Virus record (IMG/VR): IMGVR_UViG_3300022842_000703
Location: 1 to 22,727 of that record
DNA length: 22,727 nucleotides
Direction: 5' to 3' (one strand)
Source: a virus
In this document: piece after piece, positions 1-12,738 of the stretch
Position numbering within the stretch: position 1 is the first letter of the stretch
Layout of the letters: each line of letters opens with the position of its first letter
Notes under the pieces: generated by a model
Told to the model about the DNA's origin: nothing
Seen by the model: the letters and a program-made list of their open reading frames with translations, nothing else
The model's database searches: none
Position numbers and translations under genes: made by a program

Positions 1-2963
1 CGCCCGAGGAAAACCAAGCCTCCCCCGAGCTAGAGGACATTCGCAGGAACACGATTACCGACGTAGCTGACCGCAGAACAGTAGGCGAACGGATCATGGC
101 CGCTCGCGAAGAGCATTTAACGGACATGCGTAAACGGGCAATAATGAATTGGGCCGACAACTTGCGTGGAGTTGCCTTCAAAATGGACGAGCAGTCTGGC
201 GCGGGATCAGCCGACACCGTGGACGCTACAGTAAATCCATTTATACAGATGCACATCTCGCGCAAGGCTCGACCAATTGCGAAACTGTGGCTGACGACAG
301 GTCAATCGCGCATGACTCCAGACGGCGACATTGAAGCGATACCGGGTTCATTAGGGTTGAAGCAAATTTACGCCATTGCCAGAGATCCGAAAAAGAACGG
401 CTCGAAAAGCAAAAAGTTTGCAAAAGAGATGCAGATCAATGCCGAGTTGTATATCGCGGCTTTAAGCGCAGAAGAATTGCTGGCTCAAGGCAGAGAGAAG
501 AACTTCGGCATCGACCGAGACGCTTTCCAAAAAGCACTTGCAGAAGGGCAAGACGTGACCGAAATGGATTTCTTTAGCCAAGAACTCGCTGAACAGCGGA
601 TAAAAACCATAAAGGAATTTGCGGAGAAATACCCAGTGCTAAAAGAAGTGCAGCGGGAACACGCTAAATGGAGCAAGGCATTACTCGATTTCGGTGACGC
701 AAATGGTCTTGTTAATGCAGAAAGCCGAACAGAGTTTGAACGCGACTTTTACACTCCAATGTACCGCGTCGATGAGGCCGCTCAAGTAGCCGATGCGATC
801 AGGGGGCCTGATGGCGGGCTAAAGAACCCCAAGGAGGCGAAGAAGATCATTAGACGCCTAAAGGGTGGGACAGGTCGAGTAGCCGTCTTGGAGAATCAGA
901 TCAAGGGCATGAACGCTACGATTGAGCAGTCTTACATCAACATGGCAAAACGCACGGCGGTTCGCTATTTTGGAGGCAATGCGTCTGTGATGGTAAGGGC
1001 GAAACATACCCCAAAGCCATACAAGACCAGCAAAGGCGAATTGATAGAGGCACTTGCCACACAACGTTTTTACGACTTACAGAAAACCAATGAGTTGCCA
1101 CCAAAGGTTAAAGGCGATCTAGCGGCGTTTATTCGACTCGCTAAGAGCAAGGCAGCAGCTGGGCAGTTTGATCTAATCGGCATGACAAATGAGAAAGAGC
1201 TGGACAGAAGCGTAACCTTATTTCGGATGCAGCGGCCAATGGGTGACAACATTATGGTCGTGATGGAGGATGGAAAGCCCCAGTATTGGGAAATCAAAGA
1301 TCCAATGTTCATGGAGTCCGTTAATGCAATGGGCCCCGACGTATGGAAACATGCTGATAACTTCTTCATTCTGTGGTTTGCTATTAAGCCTAAGAACCTG
1401 CTCACCCGCATGATTACCTCGACTCCAAGCTTTGTGGGGCGGAACTCATTCCGCGACACCATAGCGGCATGGGCAGCAAGCAAGGAGCTTAAAATACCAG
1501 GACTTTCCGCAGTCATTGGAGCCAAGAAGATACTAATGACCAAAGACGGGTTTATGGACAACTTAGGGTTTTCGGGGCTAGGGGATGAAGGTTACGACAT
1601 GTGGAAGGGAAACCCGATGATTCCGAAAAATGCACGAAATGACTTTATGAAGCTGAGCAAGAATGAAAGGCGCGGTTTCCTCGGTAGCGTCATCAACACT
1701 CCTGCAAAGTGGGCAAAAGCCTACATGAAAGCGGTTGAGATGAGCGAAATGATGAATCGCGCAGGACTTGCAAGCGCAGTCATAGATGCTGGCGGATCAA
1801 ATATGATGGGGGCTTACCGTGGCTTAGACCTTACAAACTTTAGTTCTCACGGTGGATATGGGCCAGCACGTTTAATCATGCACACCGTCCCATTCCTTAA
1901 TGCTCGTATCCAAGGTCAGTATTTCCTCGCTAGGAACGCGGCGATGTTGGTGAGACCAAACCATAAGGAGCAAGGTAAGGCGTTCAGAAATAGCATGTTG
2001 ATGCTTACATTCGCAACTCTCGCACTCGCAGCGGTCAACTGGCGCGATGAGCGGTATTGGGCGTGTCCACAATGGGAGCGTGATATGTATTACCTATTCT
2101 TCTTCGACGACGACAGCCCAAACCCGAGCTTCCGTATGCCCAAGCCTTTTGAAATCGGCGCGATTGCTTCGACTATCCCAGAATGGATCGTTGGATCAAT
2201 TGGAGGCAAGCTAAGTGGTGCCGAGGGCAAGGATGCGATCACACGCTTACTTTCTCAGACTCTCGCAATGAACCCCGGCGTGTATTTGACGGCGGGTTAT
2301 GAGCAAGTCGCAAACGTGAACTTGTTTACGGGAATGCCAATTGAGAATATTGGTGATCAATTTGAGACCAACCCGGAAGACCGATACGACGAATATACCC
2401 CCGAAATGTTCAAGACCGCAGCCAAGGCGATGCCAGACAGTTTCCCCGAATGGTCACGCAGCCCTAAGCGCCTAGAACATATGTGGCGGGCGACGCTTGG
2501 CTCAGTGGGCATGTATGTTGCCAATTCCACTGATATGCTTTGGCGCAGGGCTAGCGGCTCACCAGCGCGGCCTAAACGTCAATGGCGCGACCAGGAGTGG
2601 GTGGGTGGTGCCATTAGATCGTTCTTTCCTTCCAGCACTCCAAAGCCGGATAAACATGTCAGTGAATTTTACGAACTACTCAAAATTACGGATGGCTTAT
2701 CGTCGCGGGCACAGTATTACCGAGAGCAGGGTCAGCCTGAGAAGGCGCGTAAGATTGAGCAGGATAACCGCGACGCTTTGCGGATGCTTCCCCTGCTGGA
2801 GTCCACGAAGACGCAAATAAGCCAGATTACGAAGCAGAAGAATGCAATCATCGGGAATCCAGTGATGTCACCCGAGGCCAAAAGGCGTCAAGTTGACATT
2901 CTGACCAACAAAAGGAATCAACTTGCCAAGCGGACGTATGACATATTCCAGCGGCCAAGGTAA
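1..2963 (+). CDS. Large LPD38-type phage protein, 5' end missing (probable internal/ejected virion protein)
   Basis: The frame is open from the first base of the window, so the gene is truncated at its 5' end. The first internal Met codon is at 96, giving 955 residues from there. The layout resembles the LPD38 ('large polyvalent protein-associated domain 38') C-terminal region of giant phage proteins: an R-N-S-F-R-D motif, a long helical stretch, then a PFLNARIQGQ motif near residue 600. A short hydrophobic segment follows (about 634-649), then an N-W-R-D-E-R-Y motif and a proline-rich C-terminal region with P-K-P-F-E. In such proteins the LPD38 region usually trails enzymatic domains; those would lie upstream of this window. 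Proteins of this kind near portal genes are thought to be packaged or ejected with DNA, which is inference here. The last 150 residues are charged and helical. The family call is from remembered sequence pattern, not a search. Confidence 0.7.
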   Translation, partial: PEENQASPELEDIRRNTITDVADRRTVGERIMAAREEHLTDMRKRAIMNWADNLRGVAFKMDEQSGAGSADTVDATVNPFIQMHISRKARPIAKLWLTTGQSRMTPDGDIEAIPGSLGLKQIYAIARDPKKNGSKSKKFAKEMQINAELYIAALSAEELLAQGREKNFGIDRDAFQKALAEGQDVTEMDFFSQELAEQRIKTIKEFAEKYPVLKEVQREHAKWSKALLDFGDANGLVNAESRTEFERDFYTPMYRVDEAAQVADAIRGPDGGLKNPKEAKKIIRRLKGGTGRVAVLENQIKGMNATIEQSYINMAKRTAVRYFGGNASVMVRAKHTPKPYKTSKGELIEALATQRFYDLQKTNELPPKVKGDLAAFIRLAKSKAAAGQFDLIGMTNEKELDRSVTLFRMQRPMGDNIMVVMEDGKPQYWEIKDPMFMESVNAMGPDVWKHADNFFILWFAIKPKNLLTRMITSTPSFVGRNSFRDTIAAWAASKELKIPGLSAVIGAKKILMTKDGFMDNLGFSGLGDEGYDMWKGNPMIPKNARNDFMKLSKNERRGFLGSVINTPAKWAKAYMKAVEMSEMMNRAGLASAVIDAGGSNMMGAYRGLDLTNFSSHGGYGPARLIMHTVPFLNARIQGQYFLARNAAMLVRPNHKEQGKAFRNSMLMLTFATLALAAVNWRDERYWACPQWERDMYYLFFFDDDSPNPSFRMPKPFEIGAIASTIPEWIVGSIGGKLSGAEGKDAITRLLSQTLAMNPGVYLTAGYEQVANVNLFTGMPIENIGDQFETNPEDRYDEYTPEMFKTAAKAMPDSFPEWSRSPKRLEHMWRATLGSVGMYVANSTDMLWRRASGSPARPKRQWRDQEWVGGAIRSFFPSSTPKPDKHVSEFYELLKITDGLSSRAQYYREQGQPEKARKIEQDNRDALRMLPLLESTKTQISQITKQKNAIIGNPVMSPEAKRRQVDILTNKRNQLAKRTYDIFQRPR

Positions 2964-5840: not shown

Positions 5841-6173
5841 ATGAGCACAAATGAAAACGACACCGCACACCTCCGCCTGTATAACGGCACTCACGAAAAG
5901 TCACCGTCTGAGCGCAAGAACCGCTTAGGAGCACTAGAGCATGAATCTGGCTTTGAGCATCTTTGCACTGAGTTCGCCTATCAACTTCACGTAGGCTTTG
6001 AACAAAAGATACTCGACCCCAAGACCAGCAGCCAAGAACGGGAGGTTTTAGTCAAAGCGAGAGCACTTGCTTGTGAAAAATTACACCCTAACCGGCTAAT
6101 ATCGTCAGGAGTGAAACGCGCAGAGTCAGCAATGAAGCGGCTTGAGCGCGAATCCCCGAAAAAGGCCGTTTAA
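5841..6173 (+). CDS. Small charged helical protein of unknown function
   Basis: A 110-residue hydrophilic protein starting six bases after the portal stop, so probably co-transcribed with it. It is rich in Glu, Lys and Arg with long predicted helices (residues 25-60 and 60-105) and a basic C-terminus. It has no signal peptide, membrane segment or recognisable motif. It might be a minor head or packaging accessory protein by position, but I recognise no family. Its stop codon TAA (6171-6173) overlaps the first base of promoter-like motif copy B. Confidence 0.75.
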   Translation: MSTNENDTAHLRLYNGTHEKSPSERKNRLGALEHESGFEHLCTEFAYQLHVGFEQKILDPKTSSQEREVLVKARALACEKLHPNRLISSGVKRAESAMKRLERESPKKAV

Positions 6174-6182
6174 TTGCAACCG
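6173..6182 (+). promoter_or_regulatory. Promoter-like motif ATTGCAACCG, copy B
   Basis: Exact second copy of the intergenic motif, 79 bases before the 6262 start. It lies in the 17-base loop of a short inverted repeat, GGCCGT at 6164-6169 and ACGGCC at 6187-6192. TAAACT, 18 bases after TTGCAA, is a weak -10-like hexamer. The 88-base gap to the next gene holds no ORF and ends in an A/T-rich leader. Confidence 0.5.
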
Positions 6183-6261
6183 CTGGACGGCCCCCCTTAA
6201 ACTCATGTAGAACTTAGGACGAACAGTTAATCACACACTAATCCACTACATATAAAATATC

Positions 6262-6771
6262 ATGTCTACAGCATCCAATCCCTCTCCTGCCAAGAAATAC
6301 AAGAACGGTGTATCCGGTTTTGTCTCCTGGGCTTATAATAACCTCAAGGGCATCATGCGCTTTGCTACTAATCAGGAAGCAGCCCTCGGCGTAGTCGAAG
6401 ATTGCGCAGTCGATCCAAAGCAGTCTCGCGGCATCATCCCGGCATTCACGTTTACAGATGGCGAAGACGGCACCGCAACTATCGCCATTCAAGGTGTTGA
6501 TGCTGGTGGTATCGCAGTTGCAAAGCAAATCGTAGTGGACGTATGGTTTGCCGCTACCTCTGGAGCTGCCCCTGCCGACTTGGGTAATGTAAGCGCATCG
6601 ACTGGAACCATTCTTGGTGAGCCGACTACTGACGCCTATATCCGTGTTATTTCCGACGCCGCTGGCTCGATTGTGCTGGCATTTGACAGAACAACGGACG
6701 GCAACGTATTTGCACACGCCTCAATCGCGCCAACCCTTGTCATTGGATCAGTCGCCGTTACTGGAAACTAA
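6262..6771 (+). CDS. Putative virion structural protein, beta-rich
   Basis: A 169-residue protein with alternating hydrophobic and polar residues suggesting a beta sandwich, including T-A-T-I-A-I-Q-G-V-D-A and a glycine/serine/threonine-rich C-terminal half. It has no signal peptide. Such proteins in phage late operons are often head-decoration or tail-adaptor proteins, but I recognise no family. The start has no Shine-Dalgarno sequence; it follows an A/T-rich leader. It is the first gene after promoter-like motif copy B and probably leads a transcription unit that includes the next two small genes. Confidence 0.7.
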   Translation: MSTASNPSPAKKYKNGVSGFVSWAYNNLKGIMRFATNQEAALGVVEDCAVDPKQSRGIIPAFTFTDGEDGTATIAIQGVDAGGIAVAKQIVVDVWFAATSGAAPADLGNVSASTGTILGEPTTDAYIRVISDAAGSIVLAFDRTTDGNVFAHASIAPTLVIGSVAVTGN

Positions 6772-6785
6772 TTCGACCGTTTCAG

Positions 6786-6799
6786 TCTCTCTCTCTCTC
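6786..6799 (+). repeat. (TC)7 dinucleotide tract
   Basis: Seven uninterrupted TC units in the 58-base gap before the 6830 gene. A run of this length can change by slippage, and it lies upstream of a start codon, so it could alter leader length or mRNA structure. It is outside coding sequence, so slippage would not shift a reading frame. Confidence 0.8.
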
Positions 6800-6829
6800 C
6801 CACACTAACCCAAAAGGAACACCTGCACC

Positions 6830-7138
6830 ATGGCCTCAGCTACAATTCAAAACGCCACAGAAACAAGCGGGAGCGCAACGCTTATTGCCGCTCGAAACCG
6901 CACACGTAAATGGATCATGGTGCAGGCCGACGCTGACAACGGCGTGTCTATTGCCATTGGGTTCAGTAAAGACGTTGCCTTTGCCGCCGATGATGCCGAC
7001 GCAGGCATTGTGCTGGTAGCAGGGGCGCACATTATAATTGATCAAATGGGAAGCTTGAACGCTAACCAAATCTCGATTTACGGTGTTCATGCAGGGTCAA
7101 ACGGGGAAGATCCACTTGTTCGCGTCATTGAACTTTAA
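6830..7138 (+). CDS. Small beta-rich putative virion protein
   Basis: A 102-residue protein with a strong beta pattern and many Ala, Asp and Ile residues, ending in a short V-I-E-L tail. It has no signal, membrane segment or catalytic motif. Its size and composition fit a small decoration or fibre-accessory protein, but no family is recognised. It is one of few genes here with a Shine-Dalgarno-like site (AAAAGGA, about 11 bases before the ATG). The start codon of the next tiny ORF lies two bases after its stop. Confidence 0.7.
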   Translation: MASATIQNATETSGSATLIAARNRTRKWIMVQADADNGVSIAIGFSKDVAFAADDADAGIVLVAGAHIIIDQMGSLNANQISIYGVHAGSNGEDPLVRVIEL

Positions 7139-7140
7139 GG

Positions 7141-7305
7141 ATGAGCACTTACCGCGTTCCCCTTACCTTGATTGTCACGATAAATGAAAATGCCCCCCCG
7201 ACTATTACTATAGACGCAGGGCAAATGCTTGATGATGAATCGGGGGAACTAATTTTATCAGAAAACTCAGAACCCATAGAAATCACCAAGCATGAAACTC
7301 ATTAA
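7141..7305 (+). CDS. Tiny 54-residue ORF, unknown function
   Basis: It opens with M-S-T-Y-R-V-P-L-T-L and ends E-I-T-K-H-E-T-H before TAA at 7303-7305. It starts two bases after the preceding stop and overlaps the next gene's start by 14 bases, a spacing typical of co-translated phage genes. The product is acidic (D-D-E-S-G-E) with short beta-like segments. It contains a run of seven C residues (7193-7199) that could be prone to slippage. No homologue is recognised; position and tight packing are the main support. Confidence 0.55.
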   Translation: MSTYRVPLTLIVTINENAPPTITIDAGQMLDDESGELILSENSEPIEITKHETH

Positions 7306-9625
7306 CTTCTCCTACCTTTTTTTAGCGGCGAGCCTATTTATAACAGGTTGCCAAATTCCTAATTCGGGCGAACTCGAAATCGGCGATGCATTCGGAAACG
7401 AAACGCAAACTCGCGGGTATGGCGCAAAAATAAGCGCACTCCCAACCAGCGACGGCACAATCGCCGATACGGACGATTTGCTTATTAACGACTACTCCGA
7501 GAGTCGAACCGAGTCAATTGATGCGAGTCAGCTTAAAACTTACTTTCAGACGGGCTTAGATGCCTCAGTCCTTGACCTGACCGACGATTACACTTGGACA
7601 GGTGCCAGTGACTTCAGCGGCTCTACGGTAACGCTACCAGCTACTGTCAGCGGTGGCCTTACCTCGTTTGAGGTAGCGGGTGCGGCAGCTACCGTGCAGT
7701 CCGATGTCGATACAAATGAGAGTGACGCTGATGCCGCCATAGCGCTCAAGGCTAACACAGCCGACACCTACACTCAGACAGCCGCCGATGCAGCGATTGC
7801 CACCTCAATTAGTAATCTGCTCAGCGGCGATCCTGTGTTTGCGGGGAACGTAGGTTTTGATGATACGCCAGAGTTTTCAGCGGGTTTAGAAGCCACTTTT
7901 CTTGAGTTTTCTGGAGGGTCTGACGCTACCATTACCCGCTCCGCAGCTGGGGTGATCGCCGTCGAGGGCGTCGATGTCTTGACGACATCCACAGGATACA
8001 CCCAGACAGCCGCCGATGCCGCGTTTGAGGTAGCGGGAGCAGCAGCTACCGTGCAGTCTGACGTAGATCAAAATGAGTCGGACGCCGAAGCCGCCTTTTT
8101 AACCAGTTCGTTTAGCCAGCGCGGCATTCGCTCAGTGGGCTCCACTCATGCGCTTGAGATGCCGGCGCGTGATTTTGCCTTAGATAATCACTCCGTTCGT
8201 GGGGTGTTCAAGCGTCCGACAACTGACACCGTCCTTTGGACTAATCAACAGCAAGACACTATCGCGACATCGGCATGGAGAAAATCAGGTGGCGCAGGCA
8301 GTATCAGTTCTGCGGGCGCAACTGGCTTTACGGCATCCGGCGCCGTCACCGCCACCACTGGCAACCTCGCGCCTGATGTGGTGGTTGGACAGACGATTCG
8401 ATTTTCTTTTAACGTGGATGTGGCGGCGTCAATTTCAAATATCCGTGCCAGATATTACAGTGGCGGGTTTATCACAATGTCTAACGAAGTTACGAGTGGT
8501 TTTGTTGATGGCGCAAACACTATTGATCTAGTTGCCACTGTTGCCCGGACGTCGTCGTGGGAAATCCAAATTACGCTGACAGATGATTGCGTGGTCTCTG
8601 TCACCTCGACAAATGTTCTCCGCGAGCCGTTGGGATCGCGTTTGATCTGGCAGCAAGACGGCAAGCTTAAGCTACAATTTGGGAATCTGACCGATTGGGC
8701 GACCTTAGAGTGGGTGAGTGATGCGTCGGCGTCCGTGGCGGTCGGTGATTACGCAGAAATTATCGCTTCAATCAACCGTGACGACGACGAGTTGATTTTT
8801 TTCGTAAACGGTCTGCACATGCAGGACAGCGGAGCAGCCAATGAATATCATGACATTTCAGCGGCGAGCGCGCAAACGCTGACGACCAAAAACACTTGGC
8901 TGTTATTCTCGGACGGCAGCACGCACTACGCAGGCTCAGCCGTGGAGGCATTTTGCTTTGACGCAGGGGCAATTCTGGCCTCCGTGGTCGCTGAGCGTTT
9001 CGCTGACCCCACCCTTTGGCTCGACTCGACGGCAACCTCCGAAACAATCGGCATTTGGGATTGGTCAGTCGGCTTTGATAGCTGGACAGAGGTGCGGCTG
9101 ACAGGGCTAGCGGGGCAGACCATCGGCGGTGAGGGTGATTGGCTCAAACTCACTCCCAGCGTTGATAACAATAACCACGAAATGACGCTTAATCCCATAG
9201 GCACGGTATCGCCGAGTGGAACGTATATGAAGCTTAAATTTAAGGTGTATATCCCATCTGGACAGGCTCAGAATATAAACCAAATCCGTGCCAGGTTCTT
9301 CAATCTAGCAGGCACGGCGGGGCAAGTGGTTGCCACTCGAACACCGACAAAAGATCAAATTATGTCCTATGAAATTGATTTTGTGACCACCGAAGAAGCA
9401 GGCAAATTTTACCTCTATGTTTTCAAAGACAGCACTGAATCTTACACGGGCGACGCCACCTCGCATCTATACGTAAAAGACGTCGAGCTCTATAAAAATG
9501 GCCTTGATCGCGCGGTGGACTTGAGAGCCTCCGGGCTCACCAAGCCTGACCGAATCGGATCGGATGATGGCGATTATGTCACCGCATCTGGCATCACTGA
9601 TACTGACCCCCTGACGATCAACTAA
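7292..9625 (+). CDS. Tail-fibre-like protein with an N-terminal lipoprotein signal
   Basis: 777 residues. Residues 1-20 form a lipoprotein signal: K at 2, a hydrophobic core, then the lipobox I-T-G-C with Cys20. From about residue 45 the sequence is tail-fibre-like: K-I-S-A-L-P-T-S-D-G followed by D-D-L-L-I-N-D and S-Q-L-K-T-Y-F, the common opening of phage fibre proteins. Two collagen-like-length, Ala/Asp-rich repeats follow: Y-T-Q-T-A-A-D-A-A at about 160 and 236, and F-E-V-A-G-A-A-A-T-V-Q-S-D-V-D at about 126 and 245. The C-terminal ~450 residues look like jelly-roll and LamG/concanavalin-like binding folds, with a V-N-G-L-H segment and two paired N-Q-I-R-A-R-F/Y strands. No Met codon occurs between the signal and the fibre region, so the signal is not an artefact of a long start. 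Receptor binding or surface display is inferred. Confidence 0.7.
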   Translation: MKLINFSYLFLAASLFITGCQIPNSGELEIGDAFGNETQTRGYGAKISALPTSDGTIADTDDLLINDYSESRTESIDASQLKTYFQTGLDASVLDLTDDYTWTGASDFSGSTVTLPATVSGGLTSFEVAGAAATVQSDVDTNESDADAAIALKANTADTYTQTAADAAIATSISNLLSGDPVFAGNVGFDDTPEFSAGLEATFLEFSGGSDATITRSAAGVIAVEGVDVLTTSTGYTQTAADAAFEVAGAAATVQSDVDQNESDAEAAFLTSSFSQRGIRSVGSTHALEMPARDFALDNHSVRGVFKRPTTDTVLWTNQQQDTIATSAWRKSGGAGSISSAGATGFTASGAVTATTGNLAPDVVVGQTIRFSFNVDVAASISNIRARYYSGGFITMSNEVTSGFVDGANTIDLVATVARTSSWEIQITLTDDCVVSVTSTNVLREPLGSRLIWQQDGKLKLQFGNLTDWATLEWVSDASASVAVGDYAEIIASINRDDDELIFFVNGLHMQDSGAANEYHDISAASAQTLTTKNTWLLFSDGSTHYAGSAVEAFCFDAGAILASVVAERFADPTLWLDSTATSETIGIWDWSVGFDSWTEVRLTGLAGQTIGGEGDWLKLTPSVDNNNHEMTLNPIGTVSPSGTYMKLKFKVYIPSGQAQNINQIRARFFNLAGTAGQVVATRTPTKDQIMSYEIDFVTTEEAGKFYLYVFKDSTESYTGDATSHLYVKDVELYKNGLDRAVDLRASGLTKPDRIGSDDGDYVTASGITDTDPLTIN
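7666..7738 (+). repeat. Direct coding repeat, copy 1 of fibre shaft unit
   Basis: This segment recurs at 8023-8095, 357 bases (119 codons) downstream, and encodes F-E-V-A-G-A-A-A-T-V-Q-S-D-V-D plus N-E-S-D-A. Most differences are synonymous, so the repeat is maintained as protein. A second, shorter unit (7769-7791 and 7997-8019) encodes Y-T-Q-T-A-A-D-A. Confidence 0.8.
8023..8095 (+). repeat. Direct coding repeat, copy 2 of fibre shaft unit
   Basis: Second copy of the unit at 7666-7738, in the same reading frame. The pair frames the region between the fibre N-terminus and the globular C-terminal domains. It could seed recombination that lengthens or shortens the fibre shaft. Confidence 0.8.
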
Positions 9626-10467
9626 TGCACAATCTACTGCTACTATTTATCCTCGCCGCCTCAGCCCTCTCGGCAGGCGTGCCGATCCGCTCGCATCCGC
9701 CGAAGGACTATCAGGTCTACCTGATGCTCGGGCAAAGCCTGATCCAGTCAGGTGCTTTCTCTGGCGACTCGGCTGCGATCAATGGTCGTGAGTTTGACGA
9801 TCAGACGTTGTCCTTCTGGCAATCGCGCCCTGACAGCGGCAAGAAGCATGAGCGCACTCTCCGATATGCCCTCAACTATGGCGGTGATGAGAGCACGGGT
9901 TTCGATTCCGCGTTCGCTCGCGAAATGTATGCCCAAGGTGAGCGTAATATCGTCATCATTCGCTATGCAGTCGGCGGGCATTCAATCGTCTGTTGGGTTC
10001 CTTCAGGAGATCGCCTTGAGCCGATACCAGGAGGCGGGCAGATTGATCGTGTTGATTTAGCTAAAGCTTTTTTTGCCGACCGTCTCTCCTGGCTCACTCG
10101 CAGGGGGGATACCTATACCCTACGAGGCATGGTGATGTGGCAGGGGTCTAGTGATCGTGGCACCGCCGATCTATACAACAATTACGAAGCGCACCTTGAT
10201 TTCGTTAAGGCCGATTACCGGGCTATTTATCCAAACTTAAAGTGGCTGCAAGTGGTCTCCCCCGATTGGGATGCAGCGGCAGGCGTGCTCGTAGTGCAGG
10301 GCGCACAGATCGACTCCTCTGCGGGTGACGCGGATGCGGCATATGTCCTGAGCGATCCCGCACTAGGCGTCACTGTATCCTACTCAGACGGGACTCATCC
10401 GCTCTCCGCTGATACCGAGCGCGTCGGCGTTCAAGCGGCGCGAAAATTATCCGCACTCGGATGGTAA
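9625..10467 (+). CDS. Secreted SASA-type (sialate O-acetylesterase-like) SGNH esterase
   Basis: 280 residues with an N-terminal signal peptide (L-L-L-L-F-I-L-A-A-S-A-L-S-A, likely cleavage after about residue 17). The SASA/SGNH motifs are in order. Y-L-M-L-G-Q-S carries the nucleophile Ser38; family members normally read G-Q-S-N. W-Q-G-S-S-D at 172-177 stands in place of W-Q-G-E-S-D, with Ser for Glu. Y-S-D-G-T-H-P carries Asp255 and His258 of the catalytic dyad. Enzymes of this family remove O-acetyl groups from sugars. The start codon overlaps the fibre stop (TAATG), so translation is coupled to it. A role in deacetylating host surface polysaccharide, in entry or at release, is inference. 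The family is common in Planctomycetota, Verrucomicrobiota and Bacteroidota. Confidence 0.75.
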   Translation: MHNLLLLFILAASALSAGVPIRSHPPKDYQVYLMLGQSLIQSGAFSGDSAAINGREFDDQTLSFWQSRPDSGKKHERTLRYALNYGGDESTGFDSAFAREMYAQGERNIVIIRYAVGGHSIVCWVPSGDRLEPIPGGGQIDRVDLAKAFFADRLSWLTRRGDTYTLRGMVMWQGSSDRGTADLYNNYEAHLDFVKADYRAIYPNLKWLQVVSPDWDAAAGVLVVQGAQIDSSAGDADAAYVLSDPALGVTVSYSDGTHPLSADTERVGVQAARKLSALGW

Positions 10468-10497: not shown

Positions 10498-10737
10498 ATG
10501 CCGCCACTAAAAGACTCCTCACCGTTTTGGAAAGCCTTTTTTGCTGTCCTTATGGTTCTGCAAATGCTCATCGCCGCACTCGTTGGCGTGATGTGGAACG
10601 ACACGAGAGAAAGCCGCGATACGTCGAGGGCTAATGCTCTGTGGGTCATGACAATCAAGCCAATCGTAGCCGACAATGCTCGGCTAGTTCGCAAGCATGA
10701 ACTAGAACTCGGAATTATCGCGGCCACGGAAGAATAA
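10498..10737 (+). CDS. Small single-TM membrane protein (spanin- or holin-like)
   Basis: 79 residues with one transmembrane helix (about residues 11-32, from W-K-A-F-F to V-G-V-M-W) after a short N-terminus containing Lys5 and Lys12. A ~45-residue hydrophilic helical tail rich in Arg, Asp and Glu follows. This topology, N-terminus inside and tail outside, fits an inner-membrane spanin subunit or a small holin/antiholin. The next gene encodes a lipoprotein, as in two-component spanins. The call rests on topology and neighbours only; no family motif is recognised. The start follows an A/T-rich leader without a Shine-Dalgarno site. Confidence 0.65.
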   Translation: MPPLKDSSPFWKAFFAVLMVLQMLIAALVGVMWNDTRESRDTSRANALWVMTIKPIVADNARLVRKHELELGIIAATEE

Positions 10738-11380: not shown

Positions 11381-11412
11381 CTAAACCCTCTAATGGACGC
11401 TCGCGAAATATA

Positions 11413-12147
11413 ATGAAACACTTCCGCAAATCAGACTCTCGCCTCCACCGAGGCCGTAAGCTTGATGTATCGCTTGCTCAAGATCCGCGCAACAGAGACT
11501 TTCGCATGGGTAGCGTCTTGTCGGCTCCGGTCGGCGAGCTGAAGTCAAAACGATGGGAGTGTAAGCCCAGACTCGATCAAGGGGCTGAAGGCGAATGCGT
11601 GGGCTTTGGTGCCGCTCATTGGTTTGCGTGTGCTCCACTAGAGCAGTCAGTCAGCAAAACACTGGCACGGCTGTTCTACGACGGAGCGCAGGATCACGAC
11701 CAATGGCCGGGAAGCAACTACGAGGGCACAAGCGTGACCGGCTTGATGCGATTTCTTACAAAGATCGGCGTAATCGGCGAATACCGCTGGATATTCAATT
11801 TTGAAGAGTTGATTCAAACGCTCTCCCTTAAAGGAGCCGTGATTGTCGGAGCCGAGTGGCGTGAAGGCTGTTTTGAGCCAGATTTCTACGGCGTTATACG
11901 ATTCATTGGCCGCAAAAAGGGCGGGCACTGCCTCTGCGCCGACGAGGTTGATTTTGAAAAGAAGCGTATTGGATTTGTTCAGTCATGGGGTCGAAGCCAC
12001 GGAGTTGACGGAAGAGTCTATATGAGCTTTGACGATGTTAATCAATTGATGCTTACGCGTCCCTCGATCGCATTCCCTACCGAGCAGTCACTCGGGAAAT
12101 ACGAGTCTAAACCAAAAGTACGCCGATGGTGGCAAATTTGGAAGTGA
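11413..12147 (+). CDS. Papain-like (C1-type) cysteine peptidase
   Basis: 244 residues with no signal peptide. Visible papain-fold signatures: L-D-Q-G-A-E-G-E-C with oxyanion Gln56 and nucleophile Cys62 at the canonical six-residue spacing; N-Y-E-G-T-S-V-T-G at 102-110; K-G-G-H-C with catalytic His172; and V-Q-S-W-G-R-S-H-G ending the active site. The third catalytic residue is normally Asn in N-S-W-G; here it is Gln190. This peptidase is a recurring phage type of unknown substrate. It is about 30 bases after the lipoprotein gene and precedes a DUF1353 gene, so a role in lysis, wall or surface-layer degradation or particle maturation is possible. The C-terminus is basic and Trp-rich. Confidence 0.75.
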   Translation: MKHFRKSDSRLHRGRKLDVSLAQDPRNRDFRMGSVLSAPVGELKSKRWECKPRLDQGAEGECVGFGAAHWFACAPLEQSVSKTLARLFYDGAQDHDQWPGSNYEGTSVTGLMRFLTKIGVIGEYRWIFNFEELIQTLSLKGAVIVGAEWREGCFEPDFYGVIRFIGRKKGGHCLCADEVDFEKKRIGFVQSWGRSHGVDGRVYMSFDDVNQLMLTRPSIAFPTEQSLGKYESKPKVRRWWQIWK

Positions 12148-12151
12148 TGAA

Positions 12152-12262
12152 ATGCGTGGAGCAAAAGACAGTAACCCGGGCTATCATCGCCGACTTGCGT
12201 GGTATCATTTCCGCAAATGGCTCTTTCCTAATTCAAAAATCCCAATCCCTGAAGACAAATGA
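12152..12262 (+). CDS. Tiny basic 36-residue ORF (alternative frame possible)
   Basis: It lies between the peptidase and DUF1353 genes. The product starts M-R-G-A-K-D-S-N, contains R-R-L-A-W-Y-H-F-R-K-W-L-F-P, and ends P-E-D-K. Its stop overlaps the next gene's start (ATGA), a common coupling arrangement. A competing ORF in another frame, 12147-12278 (43 residues), starts on the peptidase stop (TGATG). The Trp/Tyr/Phe- and Arg-rich composition makes the 36-residue frame the more protein-like of the two. Evidence is modest. Confidence 0.4.
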   Translation: MRGAKDSNPGYHRRLAWYHFRKWLFPNSKIPIPEDK

Positions 12263-12678
12263 GCACATCATTTTATAAAGCAGAGCCCGAGGCAGGTGGA
12301 TTTCTTACCGATCTATTTCTCAAGGCGCACGACGTACCTATCAAAGAACGCCCTTACGAACTACTCCGGCCACTACGATATTACTCCAAGATACTTGGTG
12401 AAGTGATTGAGGCGCCCCAAGGCTACCGGACGGACTTTGCTAGCGTGCCCCGTATGTTTTGGCGATTAATCCCTCCCTTTGGCCGCTACCAGCGTGCAGC
12501 GGTCATCCACGACTATCTGTGCGAGTTATCAGGCTCAACGGGGATCAGCAGCAAAACAGCCGCAAAGATTTTCCATGAGGCTATGCTTATTGCAGGCGTA
12601 AACCGCGCAAAAGCGAGTGCGATGTATTACATGGTCGCATGGTTCGGCCCACGATTTAAAGCCACTTCGGTTTCCTAG
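12259..12678 (+). CDS. DUF1353 family protein
   Basis: 139 residues. The DUF1353 signature is clear: E-A-P-Q-G-Y-R-T-D-F-A-S-V-P-R, then L-I-P-P-F-G-R-Y-Q-R-A-A-V-I-H-D-Y-L-C, with an additional helix pair carrying K-A-A-K-I-F-H-E-A-M. The conserved Asp, His and Asp residues are the likely active or metal site, but the biochemical role of the family is unknown. It occurs widely in tailed phages. The gene closes a run of co-oriented membrane and peptidase genes. Its last codons fall inside a large inverted repeat (12661-12738), so its 3' end may be part of a terminator or RNA structure. Confidence 0.85.
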   Translation: MSTSFYKAEPEAGGFLTDLFLKAHDVPIKERPYELLRPLRYYSKILGEVIEAPQGYRTDFASVPRMFWRLIPPFGRYQRAAVIHDYLCELSGSTGISSKTAAKIFHEAMLIAGVNRAKASAMYYMVAWFGPRFKATSVS

Positions 12679-12738
12679 CTATTAAGATGCTAGTAGGAGT
12701 TTGTTGATAATTCCCTCCTTCATAGCCACCGAAGTGGC
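12661..12738 (+). terminator. Three-stem inverted-repeat element at end of DUF1353 gene
   Basis: An 11-bp perfect inverted repeat (12661-12671 with 12728-12738, GCCACTTCGGT and its complement) encloses 56 bases. Inside are two shorter stems: CTAGC 12675-12679 with GCTAG 12689-12693, and AGGAG 12695-12699 with CTCCT 12715-12719. Together they could form a three-way junction. There is no U-run after the outer stem, so this is not a classical intrinsic terminator. It might be a factor-aided terminator, an RNA-processing site or mRNA-stabilising structure, placed 11 bases before promoter motif C. Confidence 0.55.

Follow-up and report, generated by a model that had tools for sequence, protein, structure and literature searches.

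In tailed phages, fibres and the lipoproteins of the host envelope are usually treated as separate protein classes, and the locus described here raises the question of why a gene of the fibre type should begin with a lipoprotein signal. The gene lies on a linear tailed-phage fragment from an environmental metagenome, and the whole viral record was analysed (hereafter the window, 22,727 bases). Along its plus strand, the end of a gene for a very large polyvalent protein is followed by the portal gene (phrog_1216), small genes, the fibre-type gene (7292–9625), a gene for a SASA-type esterase (9625–10467), and genes for a protein with a single transmembrane (TM) segment, a lipoprotein, a papain-like peptidase (phrog_16701) and a DUF1353 protein, then by a probable scaffold gene, the major capsid protein gene (phrog_334) and presumed tail genes. 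With the portal upstream and the capsid downstream, the fibre-type gene sits in the structural/late operon, at the fibre locus. Relatives of the capsid and portal proteins were found only in L004, a further contig from this virus (99.9% over 6,903 bases); it stops at window position 6903, short of the fibre-type gene, so that this second assembly gives no confirmation of it. The first open reading frame (ORF; window 1–2963) corresponds to the C-terminal part of the polyvalent protein, which extends further upstream in L004 (L004:2–6475), has at least 2157 aa and includes a DNA-methyltransferase-like NPPF motif.

The fibre-type gene (plus strand, like all features below) encodes 777 aa from an ATG start, and its residues 1–20, MKLINFSYLFLAASLFITGC (7292–7351), read as a Sec/SPII lipoprotein signal. 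Lys2 is followed by a 17-residue uncharged stretch, the mean hydropathy of the h-region is 2.08, and the lipobox I17-T18-G19-C20 (7340–7351) ends in a predicted lipidated Cys20, with Gln at +2. This signal was scored with a PROSITE-type lipoprotein rule combined with a hydropathy of at least 1.5. Among the 21 window genes, the fibre-type gene alone satisfies rule and hydropathy together; they are also satisfied by two of the 877 ATG ORFs of at least 200 aa in the fetched loci, and by random N-termini of the window's composition at a frequency of 2.75e-5. The ORF shows the marks of a bacterial lipoprotein signal (positively charged n-region, uncharged h-region, lipobox [LVI][ASTVI][GAS]C, Cys at 15–35). 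A second rule is matched by 17 of 3753 ORFs, with no further long fibre-type ORF among them. The lipoprotein signal and I-T-G-C lipobox claimed in the first-pass annotation are thus upheld.

The position of the start codon points the same way. An in-frame TAG at 7277 lies four codons 5' of the ATG, and no second in-frame ATG or GTG occurs before the fibre motif; the next Met is residue 290, as expected from the earlier statement that no downstream Met precedes the fibre domain, and a standard start bypassing the signal is therefore implausible. An alternative start skipping the signal also seems unlikely, as the lone TTG, codon 63, falls inside the motif. Core (4-base) Shine-Dalgarno sequences precede only two of the 21 window genes, so that finding none before 7292 is usual in this virus and uninformative. 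Together with the count in another virus of the comparison set, L006 (1 of 18 ORFs), this scarcity gives a hint of a host lineage in which initiation proceeds without Shine-Dalgarno sequences. A 54-aa ORF just upstream (7141–7305) overlaps the fibre start by 14 nt, so that the two may be translationally coupled within the late operon.

The fibre identity of the protein, plausible in our view, is drawn from gene position, from a short motif, from repeats in frame and, with less certainty, from a beta-rich C-terminus. The phage-type fibre N-terminal motif, KISALPTSDGTIADTDDLLI (residues 46–65, 7427–7486), was recognized by pattern, its profile match (i-E 0.07) being not significant by itself. 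A DNA pattern with the same spacing (KISALP...IADTDDLLI) matched six places in viral_contigs, and all six ORFs begin M-A-[DN]-K with the motif directly after, from residue 4–5. Since the six were selected by this pattern and the profile match falls short of significance, homology is not demonstrated, and the ‘typical fibre N-terminus’ proposed earlier stands as a likeness at the level of the motif. One of the six proteins has relatives in phages of Pelagibacter and Methylophilales, found among genes whose annotation reads hypothetical or S-layer-like protein. In the present protein, the signal and a 25-residue linker running from Cys20 to the motif, QIPNSGELEIGDAFGNETQTRGYGA (7352–7426), which has no counterpart in the six viral proteins, are placed before the motif. 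Accordingly, among the possibilities offered in the first-pass annotation (a decoy or exclusion lipoprotein, a host-surface adhesin or a fibre acquired by fusion), an N-terminal fusion fits the evidence, the lipoprotein signal at a fibre-type locus being itself supported. The protein therein differs from what is expected of a tail fibre, which assembles in the cytoplasm and has no export signal.

The coding repeats noted previously were recovered as two in-frame direct repeat pairs within 7662–8095, one of 77 nt at 7662/8019 (FEVAGAAATVQSDVDxNESDAxAA; 7662–7738 and 8019–8095) and one of 31 nt at 7769/7997 (YTQTAADAA; 7769–7799 and 7997–8027); they were not found in the other loci compared. Beyond them, a beta-rich C-terminal region (8111–9622) may hold binding domains. 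Its single-sequence structure model (residues 274–777) is beta-rich and poor (mean pLDDT 41, pTM 0.32), and its weak best matches are to a CBM22 tandem (E 3.2e-3, TM 0.15–0.22), which is suggestive only, and to phage tail proteins. A second single-sequence model is likewise poor (mean pLDDT 34.7). Homology between the two presumed jelly-roll segments is not significant, and no family match for the protein was obtained in Pfam, PHROG, NCBIfam or PDB. We infer a fibre ancestry for the 777-aa protein.

Searches for relatives returned little. Against phages, tblastn with the protein gave nothing informative, nor did searches with its N-terminal and repeat parts singly, it being understood that the BLAST low-complexity filter may mask the repeat part. 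In viral_contigs, the only match was a short one, around DLTDDYTWTG, to a collar-fibre-like protein in L002/L003, and genome_contigs yielded none. A pattern of the form MK...lipobox...KISxL[PT] had 22 matches in viral_contigs, none of which was a fibre once translated. Relatives carrying the same fusion of signal and fibre were found neither in phages nor in viral_contigs or genome_contigs, and the portions of the open-access literature consulted mention no tailed-phage fibre bearing such a signal, an absence that is weak evidence.

The first-pass annotation had not mentioned the exported esterase that adjoins the fibre-type gene. Its start codon begins on the final base of the fibre stop codon, and its 280-aa product (9625–10467) matches the SASA (sialate O-acetylesterase-type, SGNH) hydrolases, PF03629, over residues 30–200 (E 1.8e-7; 31.5 bits versus a gathering score of 24.8), with GQS and DGTH motifs visible by eye. 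A Sec signal peptide, MHNLLLLFILAASALSA (9625–9675), was likewise read by eye. No esterase relatives were found in phages, plasmids, viral_contigs or PDB sequences. Separate export signals on two overlapping genes are hard to call chance, and are the best evidence that the signal of the fibre-type protein is genuine; we consider it probable that the fibre-type protein is exported. A competing view is that of an ordinary virion fibre, whose signal would be bypassed, masked or inefficient, or whose start would be non-standard, the protein assembling on the tail. The canonical fibre locus beside structural genes agrees with it, as do the in-frame TTG, ATT, ATA and ATC codons and the lack of another clear receptor-binding gene in the fragment, although host binding could fall to other tail proteins and the contig is incomplete. 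Given an intact signal with a good lipobox, the lack of any ATG or GTG before the motif, the placing of the TTG codon within it, and the independent second signal next door, which argues for true export, we judge this view unlikely.

At the fibre–esterase pair, no signal for a promoter or terminator exceeded chance. The lack of a promoter signal, together with the overlapping genes, makes expression of both from the late operon likely. This bears on another origin, in which a host-derived surface pair (a secreted esterase together with a lipoprotein that is an adhesin or binds glycans) was captured as a moron or lysogenic-conversion cassette. In its favour, bacteria that degrade polysaccharides commonly have SASA esterases with signal peptides, the GC content of the esterase gene (0.562) is above the window mean (0.507), and integrases lie beside the downstream cassette in L006 and in another virus compared, L009. 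We nevertheless hold such a capture to be very doubtful: the fibre-type protein has no match in genome_contigs and carries a fibre-like motif and repeats, the overlaps embed the pair in the late operon with no promoter or terminator exceeding chance, and the fragment is devoid of an integrase.

The pair is directly 5' of a conserved cassette, a late-operon position also absent from the earlier annotation. The cassette comprises a 79-aa single-TM protein, possibly holin- or spanin-like (10498–10737), a second lipoprotein-like protein of 211 aa with a 31% homologue in L006 (10745–11380), the papain-like peptidase (phrog_16701; 11413–12147), which marks the cassette as common to L006, L008 and L009, and the DUF1353 protein, assigned by family match to phrog_1158 (12259–12678). 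The lipobox of the second lipoprotein, TPAC, fails the strict lipoprotein rule, and its homologues have GC; no match was found for it in Pfam, PHROG or NCBIfam, and it may be the peptidase's partner in lysis or at the envelope. A lipoprotein gene stands directly 5' of the peptidase gene in the window and in the three viruses closest to it, in L006 (9234–10001), in L009 (9289–9927) and in L008 (from 9098). An apparent fusion of the two in L008 (9098–10681, a 527-aa ORF) was set aside as a probable frameshift, because the lipoprotein C-terminus runs on in another frame (9498–9986).

When the peptidase was used as a query, 80 viral loci were retrieved. In L006 and L009, the order is that of a fibre-type gene, then TM protein, lipoprotein, peptidase, DUF1353 protein and integrase, with a few small genes in between, and from this synteny the locus would be one of host recognition. 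The fibre-type genes of these two viruses (763 aa, MADYNWW..., and 785 aa, MAKSAVSS..., respectively) have no signal, so that export, as in the window, deviates from the fibre design that is usual in this position; nearly all further long genes lying upstream in the set also lack a signal, scattered hydrophobic N-termini excepted. The L009 fibre (6096–8453) contains an internal GDSL/SGNH esterase domain and the window encodes a separate secreted enzyme, so that an esterase accompanies the adsorption gene in both viruses. The fibre-type gene of L006 (5184–7475) encodes BspA-type leucine-rich repeats (LRR_5, E 4e-59). Between the window (11406–12691) and L006 (9995–11276), the peptidase and DUF1353 genes form a block of 95% DNA identity; as L006, an integrase-carrying virus, is otherwise unrelated, horizontal exchange is implied.

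Such neighbours invite the explanation that the lipoprotein and esterase form a group with the TM protein, lipoprotein and peptidase as an exported aid to lysis. The esterase would de-O-acetylate peptidoglycan or capsule and the lipoprotein would bind a wall or surface glycan, which would ease lysis and release. These genes immediately adjoin the pair on the same strand, with short gaps; the peptidase was seen by eye near lysis-type genes elsewhere (GH25-like in L011, CHAP-like in L060); and lysis enzymes of phages carrying Sec signals are known (PMC6116005). However, the fibre motif, the repeats and the position at this locus indicate receptor binding instead, and the cassette occurs in L006 and L009 without an exported fibre, so that we find a role limited to lysis quite unlikely.

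The reading we prefer, to which we assign a probability of roughly 40%, is that a lipid-anchored fibre-type binder and a secreted esterase act on the envelope of the infected cell, where they mask or remove the receptor; the phage would place them there instead of on its virion, or in addition. Expressed from the late operon just 5' of the apparently lysis-associated cassette, the fibre-type protein would leave via Sec, be lipidated at Cys20 and become anchored in the host envelope, probably the outer membrane, and would late in infection be displayed on this membrane or held under it. The co-translated SASA-type O-acetylesterase would be released into the periplasm or the medium. The anchored fibre domains would then occupy the receptor glycan on the infected cell and the esterase would strip its acetyl groups; progeny would be spared from re-adsorbing to dying cells and debris, and superinfection would be excluded. 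Lipidation, surface location, ligand and function are all predicted here from sequence. Retention of the fibre-type protein in the periplasm would preclude masking of surface receptors, and late expression fits the protection of progeny better than a classic early exclusion. The case against receptor masking also includes the single sequence available, C-terminal domains with no family match and poor structure models.

A more specific form of this proposal, which we regard as rather unlikely, is a binder-plus-destroyer pair, in which a former receptor-binding fibre, now lipid-anchored, works late in infection with an exported receptor-destroying esterase. Its logic may be comparable, with the same reserve, to that of some animal viruses with their enzymes for attachment and receptor destruction; no description of such a pair in tailed phages was found in the portions of the open-access literature consulted. 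If true, a fibre with an export signal and an exported glycan esterase would directly connect the adsorption machinery with the exclusion of superinfection or the protection of progeny; fibre genes of metagenomic phages would then need checking for signal peptides before they are labelled as virion proteins.

Several known systems offer partial likenesses. The esterase resembles the SASA (PF03629) carbohydrate esterases, scoring above the Pfam cut-off, and differs from them in being phage-encoded and overlapping the gene of a fibre-type lipoprotein. According to PMC6199706, phage targets of diversity-generating retroelements (DGRs) are without signal peptides, and a DGR-diversified surface lipoprotein of Legionella is cited there. 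The latter shares with the present protein the display, as a lipoprotein, of a kind of binding protein otherwise found on phage tails, whereas neither a DGR nor a C-type lectin was identified here. The L009 fibre occupies the same locus 5' of the TM–lipoprotein–peptidase–DUF1353 cassette, with an esterase tied to the adsorption gene; it has no signal, however, and bears its esterase in the same chain instead of as a separate exported SASA protein. Finally, T5-like phages encode a receptor-blocking lipoprotein, Llp, beside the receptor-binding gene (PMC4728585). As in T5/BF23-like phages, a phage-encoded protein with a lipoprotein signal would here lie at a putative host-recognition locus and would be expected to act on the envelope of infected cells and on their debris; unlike Llp, it has 777 aa, is of the fibre type with repeats and has an exported esterase as its partner. 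The likeness would be one of effect, T5-like phages doing the masking part.
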